A stretch of DNA of 64,000 nt from Oscillospiraceae bacterium (GTDB taxonomy: Bacteria; Bacillota; Clostridia; Oscillospirales; Oscillospiraceae). A model generated the notes under the pieces. It saw nothing but the letters and a program-made list of their open reading frames with translations, did not search any database and was not told the origin of the DNA. Each line of letters starts with the position of its first letter. Within the stretch, counting starts at the first letter, position 1. Below, in pieces: positions 31,582 to 44,210 of the stretch. Both the position numbers and the translations under genes were made by a program. The stretch lies in NCBI GenBank assembly GCA_015067565.1, contig SVMF01000013.1, positions 16,055 through 80,054 on the forward strand, read 5' to 3'.

Positions 31582-34020
31582 ATGAAGCGCTATTTCTTGT
31601 TTTTCCTTTGCATTGCCTTGCTTCTTCCGTTGTTTTGTCCAACCACTCCTCAAACACAAGCCGCAAGCACTTATGATCCTTACAAGGCCATTGCCTATGC
31701 CGAGGCGAACTGGAACAGCGGAAAAGGCCTTTGCGCCGAGTTCGTTTGGAATTGTCTGAAGGCCGGCGGTCTGAACCTCAGCACATCCGGACTTCAGGAA
31801 TCGCCCTATGTCACGACCGGCCTTGCCGAAGCCGCCTGCAGAGCCATTGGCAAGCCGTATACGGGCGTAAAAGATTTCCCACTTCTCGTAACAGACAACC
31901 GTTTTGGCCCAACCCATGCCTACAATCAGCATCCGAACAACAATGCTGTAACCATCGGCGACCTTCTCTTCGTTTACTGCGAAACCTGCGGCAAAACACC
32001 CCATGTCGTCATCTGTAGCGGCTACGGCAACGGCTCTCTTCTGTGTGTTTACGGCCATAACTATGCCCAGCAAAACAGCTTCTCCCTCCCCGCAGGTGCC
32101 AACGAGGGCGGCCATGTCGGTCATCAATTCTCCATGCGTTACCTCGATTTGTCCAATGCGGAAGAATATAACTGCGAATGCAGCGTCCTTTTCGATGTCG
32201 ACAAAGCCGCATGGTATCACGAATATGTCCACGAAGTCCTGAACAAAGGTCTAATGAGTGGTGTTTCGGAGTATCGCTTCGATCCCGAGGGCAGCATGAC
32301 ACGTGCCATGGTAGTGACGGTTTTGTACCGCTACAACTACGAGCCGCAGGCCAAGGCACCCACCTTCAGCGACATTGAACCGTATCAGTGGTACACCAAC
32401 GCCGTATCCTGGGCAGCAGAAAACGGGATCGTCGGGGGTGTCGGCAACAACCGCTTCGATCCCAGCGGCAATGTCACAAGAGAGCAGCTGGCCGCCATCT
32501 TGTACCGCTACACAGCCTCTATGGGCAATGACTGCTCCGCAGCGGCCGATCTGTCCGCTTTTTCTGATGCGGTCAAAGTCAGTCCGTGGGCACGCGAAGC
32601 CATGCAATGGGCCGTAGCTGAAGGTCTTATCAATGGCTCTGACGGCAAGCTGCTGCCCGGCGGCTTTGCCACACGCACGCAGGTTGCCGCCATTTTAATC
32701 CGCTATATCGAAAAATTTGGTGTCATCGCCACGTCGGGCGCTTGCGGTGACAATGCAACATGGTCGCTCAGCTGTGACGGCACCATGACCATCTCCGGTC
32801 AGGGCGCCATGTGGGACAACTTTTCCGACTATCCCGAAGGCGAGCACTGGTACAAGCAGGCCAATTTTATCCGCAGCCTCATCGTGGAAGACGGTGTCAG
32901 CACTTTGTCCGGTCTGACAGAAGTCCTCCCCTCGCTGCAAGAAGTCCGAATGGCCGATTCCGTCGAGCAGCTCGGCACTTATTCCTTCATGGACGCACCG
33001 AATCTGCACACGGTTCGTTTGAGCAAGTTTTTGACAGAGATCCCGAACGGATGCTTCAACGGCTGCGCCAAGCTCACCTCTGTTGAACTGCCCGATTCTC
33101 TGAAAAAAATCCACGGAGATGCGTTCAAGGGCTGCAGCTCTCTGCAGCGACTCACCCTTCCCGGAAGTCTGGTCTATATCGGGCCGAATGCCTTTGCCGA
33201 CTGCTCAAGCCTGCAGGAAATTCAGCTTCCCGAGGGTCTTAAAGAGCTTGCTGCAGACGCATTTTGCAACTGCACCGCCTTGAATTCCCTGAAGATTCCC
33301 GCAAGTGTAGAGAATATTTTCACGGAAGAGGATTACAACCTGTACCAGAATTTCTTCCCGTGCCGCATTGAGGTCGATGATAGCAACCATTTCTATTGCA
33401 GCGACAAAGACGGCATCCTCTACAGCAAGGATCAGACGACGCTGCTTTACGCAAACGAAGCGCTCTGTGGCAGTTTCACGATCCCCGAAACGGTCAAAAA
33501 GATCGGTGACTACGCATTTTCCGGCTGCCGCAATCTAACCTCTGTCACCGTGCATGAGCAGGTGCGCAGCATCGGCATCTATGCCTTTATGGATTGTGGA
33601 TCGATGCAGAGCATAAAGCTCCCCAAAACCGTCGATCAATTCGGCCACGGTGTCTTTTACCAATGCACAAAGCTGAAACGCGTGGATCTGCCCGAAGGCG
33701 CAAACGATTTGTATGATATGTTCAATTTCTGCATCTCATTGGAACAGGTCACGCTTCCCAAAGGGCTCACGAAATTGGACTCGTATGCTTTTAACGAGTG
33801 CTACAGCCTGAAATCGTTCGTCGTCCCCGAAGAAGTGAGTGTCGTACGCTATCAGGATTGGAGAAACTGCTACCAGCTGAGAAACATCTACTTCCTGGGT
33901 GATGCGCCCGAGGAATTCAACGCCGGCGGCGGCAGGATCACCCTGCGATATATCGCAGGAAAGAACGGCTGGACAAGTCCATCCTGGCACGGTTACCCCA
34001 CAGCGACGTGGGAACCCTGA
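31582..34020 (+). CDS. secreted surface protein: amidase-like domain, three SLH domains, leucine-rich repeats
   Basis: The 812-residue protein begins with a signal peptide (MKRYFLFFLCIALLLPLFCP; cleavage likely after TQA). Residues about 35-190 look like a Cys-His peptidase/amidase domain, with a Cys in GKGLCAEFVWNCLKAGG and a His in KTPHVVICSGYG. Three SLH domains follow at about 215-380 (LMSGVSEYRFDPEGSMTRAM and two more), anchoring the protein to the wall. Residues about 430-800 are BspA-type leucine-rich repeats (CFNGCAKLTSVELPDSL and similar). AGGAGG precedes the ATG. It is likely an adhesin or wall-modifying protein. Confidence 0.85.
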   Translation: MKRYFLFFLCIALLLPLFCPTTPQTQAASTYDPYKAIAYAEANWNSGKGLCAEFVWNCLKAGGLNLSTSGLQESPYVTTGLAEAACRAIGKPYTGVKDFPLLVTDNRFGPTHAYNQHPNNNAVTIGDLLFVYCETCGKTPHVVICSGYGNGSLLCVYGHNYAQQNSFSLPAGANEGGHVGHQFSMRYLDLSNAEEYNCECSVLFDVDKAAWYHEYVHEVLNKGLMSGVSEYRFDPEGSMTRAMVVTVLYRYNYEPQAKAPTFSDIEPYQWYTNAVSWAAENGIVGGVGNNRFDPSGNVTREQLAAILYRYTASMGNDCSAAADLSAFSDAVKVSPWAREAMQWAVAEGLINGSDGKLLPGGFATRTQVAAILIRYIEKFGVIATSGACGDNATWSLSCDGTMTISGQGAMWDNFSDYPEGEHWYKQANFIRSLIVEDGVSTLSGLTEVLPSLQEVRMADSVEQLGTYSFMDAPNLHTVRLSKFLTEIPNGCFNGCAKLTSVELPDSLKKIHGDAFKGCSSLQRLTLPGSLVYIGPNAFADCSSLQEIQLPEGLKELAADAFCNCTALNSLKIPASVENIFTEEDYNLYQNFFPCRIEVDDSNHFYCSDKDGILYSKDQTTLLYANEALCGSFTIPETVKKIGDYAFSGCRNLTSVTVHEQVRSIGIYAFMDCGSMQSIKLPKTVDQFGHGVFYQCTKLKRVDLPEGANDLYDMFNFCISLEQVTLPKGLTKLDSYAFNECYSLKSFVVPEEVSVVRYQDWRNCYQLRNIYFLGDAPEEFNAGGGRITLRYIAGKNGWTSPSWHGYPTATWEP

Positions 34021-34046
34021 ATGCCACTTCCTGCGATTTTATAAAA

Positions 34047-34355
34047 AAACTGTGGAGCAATGCTCCACAGTTTCAGTCTGTCGAAAAACTTGATTTTCGA
34101 CAGACTGACAGAGTTCAAAAAGTCGTCAAGACGAGCAAACCGAGCGCGTCGGCGTACGATGGTACGGTAGAGCTCGGTTTGCGATGTAAGTCAAAATGCC
34201 TTGCGCAGCAAGCATTTGAAGTGCTTTTTTGCTGTATCGGAGATACATTCGCAATCGCTTATTTGAACACAGATCGCCAACCGCCAAAAATTTGCATTTT
34301 GACGATTGGCGACTTTTTTGACACTCTGAAACTGTGGAGCAATGCTCCACAGTTT
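34047..34355. repeat. 27-bp terminator hairpin duplicated around the 255-bp element
   Basis: Copies at 34047-34073 and 34329-34355 are identical: AAA, stem CTGTGGAGC/GCTCCACAG, TTT. Outside them the plus strand continues TTTTAT on the right and the minus strand continues with a T-run on the left, so the original was one bidirectional terminator between the surface-protein gene and proS. Confidence 0.85.
34074..34328 (+). mobile_element. 255-bp MITE-like element, copy 1
   Basis: Homologous to the reverse complement of 43932-44186 and of the same length. Ends are CAGTCTGTCGAAAA and TTTTTTGACACTCTG, which form imperfect terminal inverted repeats. The first and last segments fold as hairpins on their own (CAGTCTGTCGAAAA with its complement; CGCCAACCGCCAAAA with its near complement), and a central stem GCAAACCGAG/CTCGGTTTGC surrounds CGTAC/GTACG. 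No protein is encoded. It sits exactly between the two terminator copies. Confidence 0.85.
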
Positions 34356-34368
34356 TTTATTGCTTAAA

Positions 34369-35805
34369 TCAATATGCGACGCCCCAGTAGATCACCTTGT
34401 CAGCATCCTTGCCGCAAACAGCGCACTTGTTGCCGATGGGCAGCTCACCGAAGGGCATGCAACGGCTGGACATACCGGCCTCTTCCTTCATCTTTATCTC
34501 ACAAGCCTCGTCACCGCACCACATCGTGCGGATAAAGCCGCCGTTTTCCTGCTGCAGGCGCTTTGCCTCTTCCAGAGTCTCAGCATCGTAGGTGTGGTCG
34601 GTCAGATTCTTCTTTGCCTTCTCGAACATGCCTTGATGCACCTTCTCCAAGAGCTCTGCTGCAACTGCTTCGATCTCGTCGAGAGAGACGAAGCTCTTTT
34701 CGCCATTATCACGACGAGCAAAGACGCATTGGTTCTTTTCAATATCCTTCGGGCCGAGCTCCAGGCGCAGAGGAACACCCTTCATTTCATATTCAGCGAA
34801 TTTCCAGCCGGGGCTCTGCTCACTTTCGTCAATCTTCACGCGGATGCCGGCCTTCTTCAAACGCTCGACAACTGCACGGCAAGCTTCCAAAACGCCTTCC
34901 TTATGCTGCGCAACGGGAATGACAACAACCTGGATAGGAGCGACCTTCGGCGGCAGAACGAGACCGTTGTTGTCACCGTGGGTCATGATGATACCGCCGA
35001 TCAGACGGGTGGAAACACCCCAAGAGGTCTGGAAAGGATAGGCTCTCTGGTTTTCCTTGCTTGCAAAGGTGATGTCAAAGGCTCTTGCGAAGCCGTCGCC
35101 GAAGAAGTGAGAGGTGCCTGCCTGCAAAGCCTTGCGGTCATGCATCATACACTCGATGGTGTAGGTTGCCTCTGCACCGTTAAACTTCTCCTTGTCGGTC
35201 TTCTTACCCTTGGTAACAGGCATTGCCAAAACATTTTCGCAGAAATCGGCATAAACCTTAAGCATCTGCTCAGTCTCCGCCATAGCCTCCTCAGCCGTTG
35301 CATGCATGGTGTGACCCTCCTGCCACAGGAACTCTCTGTGGCGCAGGAACGGACGACTGGTCTTCTCCCAACGAAGGACGCTGCACCACTGATTGTACAT
35401 CTTGGGCAGGTCACGGTGGGACTGGATGACATTACGGAAATGCTCGCAGAAGAGCGTTTCCGATGTCGGACGGATGCAGTAACGCTCCTCAAGCTTCTCA
35501 CTGCCACCATAGGTGACCCACGCACACTCGGGTGCAAAGCCTTCGACATGGTCCTTCTCCTTCTGCAGGAGGGATTCGGGGATCAGCATCGGCATATACA
35601 CATTCTCCGCGCCGGTCTTCTTGAACTCTGCATCGAGCTGACGCTGGATACTCTCCCAGATGGCATAGCCATACGGGCGGTAAATAAACATACCCTTGAT
35701 GGAAGAATAGTCGATCAACTCTGCCTTCTTACACACATCGGTGTACCACTGGGCAAAATCGACCTCCATATCGGTAATCTGTTCTACTTTCTTTTCCTTC
35801 GCCAT
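34369..35805 (-). CDS. proS: prolyl-tRNA synthetase, archaeal/eukaryotic-like type
   Basis: Charges proline tRNA. Start moved to the ATG at 35805, 8 nt after GGGAG. The 478-residue length and the lack of the inserted editing domain place it in the short ProS class. Class II motifs are visible: motif 1 region [15 protein letters not shown], motif 2 [20 protein letters not shown], and motif 3 [16 protein letters not shown]. The C-terminal zinc-like part has [15 protein letters not shown] and CAVCGK. Confidence 0.96.
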
Positions 35806-35921
35806 AATCATATCTCCCTTTCGGCAAAAATCTAACATAGATTATACCATATGTGTCAAGTCTTTTCCAGTAGCAAGTGAAGAAAAAATTCATACAATGG
35901 AACGTATGGGAGGGATTTCAT

Positions 35922-43907: not shown

Positions 43908-44210
43908 AAGGGAACGGTCCCCCGTTCCCTTCAGAGTGTCAAAAAAGTCGCCAATCGTCAAAATGCTAATTTTTTGACGGTTGGCGATCTGTGTTCCAAT
44001 AGACTGTTGCGAGCAGAACCCTAATATAAGCCAAAACACTTCCAATGCTTGCTTCGCAAGGCATTTTGACTTACATCGCAAACCGAGCTCTACCGTACCA
44101 TCGTACGCCGACGAACTCGGTTTGCTCGTCTTGCCGCCTTTTTGAACTCTGACAGTCTGTCGAAAAACGAGTTTTTCGACAGACTGAAGGGAACGGTCCC
44201 CCGTTCCCTT
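43908..44210. repeat. 24-bp terminator hairpin duplicated around the second element
   Basis: Copies at 43908-43931 and 44187-44210 are identical: AAGGGAACGG, loop, CCGTTCCCTT. Outside them the original stem continues (GAAAC before the left copy, GTTTC after the right copy). The empty site was one longer hairpin after the aminotransferase gene. Confidence 0.85.
43932..44186 (-). mobile_element. 255-bp MITE-like element, copy 2
   Basis: Reverse-orientation homologue of 34074-34328 with the same length and same ends (CAGAGTGTCAAAAAA and CTGTCG... complement). About the first 150 and last 55 bases agree closely with copy 1; a middle stretch of about 50 bases differs. No coding capacity; the 153-residue ORF track entry across it is not a gene. 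Confidence 0.85.

Follow-up and report, generated by a model that had tools for sequence, protein, structure and literature searches.

A 255-bp MITE flanked by duplicated terminator hairpins in an Oscillospiraceae genome, probably mobilised by an IS1182-family transposase

The element between the surface-protein gene and proS

The window, that is, the whole 64,000-nucleotide stretch of DNA analysed here, contains a 27-bp hairpin (AAACTGTGGAGCAATGCTCCACAGTTT) twice, at 34047-34073 and at 34329-34355. The two copies are 100% identical and directly abut a 255-bp insert (34074-34328), which starts with CAGTCTGTCGAAAA and finishes with TTTTTGACACTCTG. The features of this locus, and those of a second copy of the element in the window, are as follows.

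31582-34020, forward strand: upstream gene for a surface or S-layer-like protein with leucine-rich repeats, which stops before the terminator (open reading frame, named from the appearance of its sequence).
34047-34073, no strand: target hairpin, left duplicate, 27 bp with 13-bp arms and a 1-nt centre, read from the window sequence.
34074-34328, forward strand: MITE of 255 bp with tips CAGTCTGTCGAAAAA and TTTTTTGACACTCTG, coding for no gene of its own, with about 50 copies in the genome.
34074-34107, no strand: terminal palindrome of 34 bp, CAGTCTGTCGAAAAACTTGATTTTCGACAGACTG, resembling the solo palindromic elements of other genomes (L063, L072, L073).
34109-34328, no strand: putative inner unit of 220 bp with its own imperfect inverted repeats, CAGAGTTCAAAAAGTCG and CGACTTTTTTGACACTCTG, delimited by inspection of the sequence.
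34329-34355, no strand: target hairpin, right duplicate, followed by the outer T-run.
34369-35838, reverse strand: proS (proline--tRNA ligase), convergent with the upstream gene, with a bidirectional terminator common to both (name from the initial annotation and the appearance of the sequence).
43908-43931, no strand: left 24-bp hairpin duplicate of the second window copy (locus L041).
43932-44186, reverse strand: MITE, second copy in the window, with 88% identity, found by BLAST of the window.
44187-44210, no strand: right 24-bp hairpin duplicate of the second window copy (locus L041).

The initial annotation had described a 255-bp element within a duplicated 27-bp terminator hairpin, which is borne out by the identical flanking hairpins, the exact borders and the 40 full-length copies in the genome. 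In the second window copy, both flanking 24-bp repeats read AAGGGAACGGTCCCCCGTTCCCTT. Judging from its sequence, the 255-bp MITE looks composite, made of the 34-bp palindrome and the 220-bp unit, the latter having tips of its own (CAGAGTTCAAAAAGTCG...GACTTTTTTGACACTCTG). A 119-aa open frame spans 34008-34367, through the insert and both hairpins, and is probably due to chance.

As also described initially, the T-run is found only at the outer hairpin copies: the inner hairpins abut CAG (TTT, then CAG), and the outer ones keep their U-tract. Transcript readthrough into the element is plausible. On both strands, the inserted unit is predicted to fold far more stably than shuffled sequences, with z-scores of -14.2 and -14.7. 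In terms of known structured RNA families, none was found at the Rfam gathering score, the best match being IMES-2 with 14.9 bits against 54.7 (E 0.24).

Copies across the genome and geometry of the duplications

We found 78 matches to the 255-bp element in the 2.1-Mb genome, many of them extra hits to the short tip palindrome of a copy already matched. From these matches 50 distinct places were collected, 40 of them full-length copies with both flanks readable. For each full copy, the left flank was compared with the right one, the empty site was rebuilt by joining the flanks, and the best palindrome was located.

A site-specific hairpin is present on both sides in 37 of the 40 full-length copies. 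The script called the duplication directly in 35 of them, with lengths between 19 and 41 bp and a mean of 26, and two further duplicated copies (L007, L033), in which the loop has diverged or 1 nt is inserted or deleted, went uncalled. In L010 and L024 the hairpins at the two MITE ends are different, and L032 continues into a different repeat at the end of a contig. The earlier proposals that palindromes or terminators are recognised by the mover, that the hairpin is duplicated as a whole, and that other copies would have flanking duplications at non-random sites, agree with these counts and with about 20 more copies in related species. The proposed duplication length of 24-27 bp was too narrow.

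The same counts bear on an account in which the hairpins belong to the element, or derive from gene conversion or recombination, and the repeats are not target duplications. Some copies do have different end hairpins, and the synteny of L024 points to recombination between copies. However, the hairpin differs from locus to locus and yet matches on both sides in nearly all full copies, while the tips stay constant as the hairpins vary, and three IS copies are alike in this. We consider this account highly improbable; it is contradicted in general and valid for the mixed-hairpin minority only.

Duplication and palindrome are centred on the same point, with an offset SD of 0.48 bp and a maximum of 1.5 bp (n = 33, own genome, a set that leaves out two copies abutting an IS). 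The offset is at most 1 bp in 34 of the 35 called duplications. For the elements of relatives, the SD is 0.28 bp and the maximum 0.5 bp (n = 16). Only one duplication out of 35 exceeds its palindrome by more than 2 bp, against 5.6 expected by permutation with shuffled lengths (P = 0.00014), and the two lengths are weakly correlated (Spearman 0.19, P = 0.27). The palindrome essentially bounds the length of the duplication without fixing it, a bound that is approximate, with the palindrome finder and its score cut-offs being our own.

Mixed hairpins were also found in L098, L105, L109 and L110, and in a Thermocaproicibacter plasmid. In all relatives where both genes flanking L024 were found, they belong to different contigs or are separated by about 60 kb on a single contig, so that this locus most likely goes back to recombination of one MITE copy with another. 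Some of the mixed copies named at the start of this paragraph may be assembly chimeras, or result from another mechanism; in the synteny comparison of L010, the flank contains another repeat. Mixed copies would also be produced if the ends of the element each attacked a different one of two neighbouring hairpins, with deletion of the intervening DNA. The junctions are exact at both differing hairpins, and mixed hairpins are frequent among the few autonomous ISs read elsewhere, which would suit such an attack, but the distant flanking genes of L024 fit recombination between dispersed copies, and we take the two-hairpin attack to be improbable.

At another locus of the own genome (L011, C18:5382-6465), a small HTH-regulator gene and a further ORF lie between two MITE copies with a spacing of about 580 bp. 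Both of these copies are edged by the hairpin CAGCCGCATCGTAAGATGCGGCTG, and the arrangement is composite-element-like.

The partner IS and related elements

The element is non-coding, short (255 bp) and present in about 50 copies, and its tips are common to an IS in the same genome, as in a MITE. At least 8 contig ends of the own genome extend into a longer element that carries the tip CAGTCTGTCGAAAAA and codes for the peptide MLERGKMERGIFEIVDT. These contigs break off 125-127 bp into it, in the order tip CAGTCTGTCGAAAAAGCTC, promoter-like region and start MLERGKMERGIFEIVDT. A search of this assembly for the IS interior gave contig ends only, as expected of a collapsed repeat. Both junctions could be matched for three IS copies (C24/C2, C30/C6, C28/C5), which were paired by the common hairpin itself. 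Hairpins of about 25, 28 and 30 bp flank them on both sides, giving direct repeats and palindromic targets of the IS1182 kind.

A degenerate KMERGIFE search in GTDB contigs and IMG/VR, starting from the N-terminal peptide, returned autonomous ISs of 1.6 kb with a match to it in other Clostridia and in a viral contig. Three of these (L098, L102, L105) have 1591-1600 bp, CAG..CTG tips and one ORF of about 495 aa. The transposase derived from L102 reaches 398.5 bits with the NCBIfam IS1182 model NF033551 (cut-off 270), and the relatives' IS transposase contains the Pfam domains DUF772 and DDE_Tnp_1_6; that of the own genome is known from its first 17 residues and from these relatives. The left tip of the MITE (CAGTCTGTCGAAAAA) is identical to the left tip of the own-genome IS, and at the right end its tip CAGAGTGTC is similar to that of the L102 IS. 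With their matching tips, these ISs provide the longer, transposase-encoding relative that the initial annotation had anticipated.

A transposase search of about 100 genomes of the family gave matches in 4, with the own assembly lacking one because the IS is collapsed there, and a scan of viral contigs gave one relative. No hairpin-flanked element turned up among viral contigs with the exact 17-nt tip as query.

Bacterial MITEs, REPINs and other palindromic repeats are short, non-coding, multi-copy, intergenic and strongly folding. REPINs carry their own palindromes, and HUH transposases move them without target duplication. The element described here is likewise short, non-coding, multi-copy, intergenic and folding, but the palindrome is that of the target and is duplicated. 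A REPIN/RAYT identity (HUH, Y1) is ruled out by the target duplications and the DDE-transposase partner.

In other species of the genus we found elements of about 250 bp, with 71-78% identity over the first 100-145 bp or so. A duplication was called in 21 of the 28 relatives' copies with sequence on both sides, with 2-3 of these calls covering a partial hairpin only. Incomplete copies at contig ends of relatives also start at a hairpin. A second MITE of the own genome, of about 175 bp, is also located at hairpins, and six of its copies have called duplications of 20-31 bp. Furthermore, nested arrays were found at three places (L031, L042, L053), where the IS entered a hairpin duplicated by the MITE.

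The second MITE, represented in the own genome by L056/L132 and about 16 others like them, has the tips AGTGTGTCAAAA and TTTTTCGACAGWCTG and contains a CGTGGCAATCTC...CATTGCGAG motif. Several of its copies are inside the palindrome GGGGAGGGGCATGCCCCTCCC, which is part of another repeated sequence. Other genomes contain solo palindromic elements (L063, L072, L073; 32-57 bp) that consist of two tips only, CAGTCTGTCGAAAA...TTTTCGACAGACTG, and are edged by palindromes. These are possibly the smallest mobile form, or a remnant of excision.

Considering only proS, a proS-like sequence was found in 12 relatives. At their proS terminators we found no empty site that has exactly the hairpin of the window locus. 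Most of these terminators consist of one hairpin, unrelated to it in sequence, which suggests the ancestral empty state, short of proof. In two other species of the genus, related elements lie downstream of proS at its terminator (L121 in G008, L128 in G006), apparently through independent insertions.

Target choice and proposed mechanism

In 28 of 33 sites, at least 4 T follow or at least 4 A precede the duplicated part, as in a terminator. The sites are mainly between convergent or tandem genes, with 1 of 40 scored as divergent; the orientations come from a rough ORF method, which does not pick up proS itself. Both results would be expected if targeting were coupled to transcription termination, through the RNA hairpin or the paused polymerase, and not to the DNA palindrome. 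However, perfect palindromes without a loop or U-tract are targeted as well, namely L009 and L012 and, for the second MITE, GGCGGGGCATGCCCCGCC and several others, and the duplicated part lies symmetrically around the DNA dyad, with no polarity along the U-tract. Coupling to termination is thus quite unlikely. Since loopless, T-less palindromes are used and the duplication is dyad-centred, palindromy, and not terminator function, seems to be the common target factor.

We consider it very likely that this is a MITE mobilised by an IS1182-family transposase, which selects hairpins, joins the element ends at the 5' feet of the hairpin and leaves the whole hairpin copied. The MITE is non-autonomous and would be moved in trans by the DDE transposase of the same-tip IS in the genome. 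This transposase would select palindromes, mostly intrinsic terminators, by their dyad symmetry or hairpin shape and not by sequence. Each 3' end of the element would then be joined to the 5' foot of the hairpin, one per strand, and gap filling would copy the whole hairpin, giving the order hairpin, element, hairpin.

As for the state of the target, we lean modestly towards an extruded hairpin, either a cruciform or a lagging-strand stem-loop, attacked at its two 5' feet. The length of the duplication would then be set by the extent of extrusion and not by a fixed protein geometry, and each insertion would double the target, leading to nested arrays at one terminator. A variably extruded hairpin joined at its feet predicts dyad-centred, palindrome-bounded duplications; the agreement with the data is no proof of extrusion. 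A transposase dimer might instead sit on the palindrome arms in B-form DNA and make a staggered cut outside the arms, with no extrusion. Any symmetric dimer would give the dyad centring alone. On the other hand, the targets have no evident common sequence, the length of the duplication is bounded by the palindrome, and a stagger of 19-41 bp puts the cuts on very different helical faces and distances, while an extruded hairpin or cruciform brings both feet together at any arm length. We find the B-form dimer doubtful. The very long staggered cut proposed in the initial annotation holds as far as the long, whole-hairpin duplication is concerned; joining at the hairpin feet is a more likely route than a literal cut on linear DNA, because the stagger varies while symmetry is kept.

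Direct repeats of 2-60 bp are on record for the IS1182 family (PMC7335449, citing ISfinder), and some of its members are described as targeting palindromes (Siguier et al., as cited in PMC5678879). The transposase score above the NCBIfam IS1182 cut-off, together with these repeats and palindrome targets, fits this family. IS1272 and TnSha1 of staphylococci (PMC5678879, PMC4923244) also have an IS1182-family transposase and hairpin or terminator targets without a sequence consensus, and structure-dependent target choice has been proposed for them, as here. In contrast, IS1272 deletes the hairpins that it targets, terminators included, without target duplication (PMC5678879, PMC4923244), whereas here the whole hairpin is kept and duplicated. 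An insertion of the hairpin-replacing IS1272 type is ruled out by the hairpin duplication in the 37 full copies. PMC5678879 proposes that the stem-loop is lost when the ends are joined at its 3' feet, and that attachment at the 5' feet would lead to its duplication (Fig 13, pathway b, hypothetical, 2017). The present data are consistent with pathway b.

Other IS1182 members differ. ISCaa15 and ISPse1 have short repeats of 4 bp (PMC3196728, PMC3281130), and ISCfr1 and a Hymenobacter member have no hairpin duplication in the one copy of each examined. An ISEfa7-type IS of Enterococcus faecium, IS1182-like with an approximately 43% identical transposase and CAGACTGT tips, has a 19-bp hairpin (AGATAGGCTAAACCTATCT) exactly at both ends at one E. 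faecium site, so that the duplicating mode is not confined to this genus. Unlike here, a second E. faecium site is without duplication.

In the literature searched, with subscription reviews and ISfinder/TnPedia outside its scope, we found no IS1182-derived MITE and no demonstrated whole-hairpin duplication. The IS1182 family and its palindrome preference are already known; the genome-scale, dyad-centred and palindrome-bounded duplication and the MITE are new. Until now the 2-60 bp repeats of IS1182 were a listed oddity, and here dozens of natural insertions show a dyad-centred palindrome of variable length. These repeats point to structure-guided target choice and complement the published hairpin-replacing mode of IS1272. 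The question whether a DDE transposase attacks an extruded hairpin becomes directly testable. The analysis also suggests that small mobile elements may remodel terminators genome-wide and seed recombination between distant loci. Insertion tools landing beside terminators, with little gene damage, are a possible application.

Lastly, two elements have end hairpins that are alike except for a reverse-complemented loop: L111, an IS of 1522 bp (AAGATT/AATCTT), and L204, a MITE in G016 (ATTC/GAAT). It is as if one hairpin had been inverted, and this could be a trace of cruciform processing.
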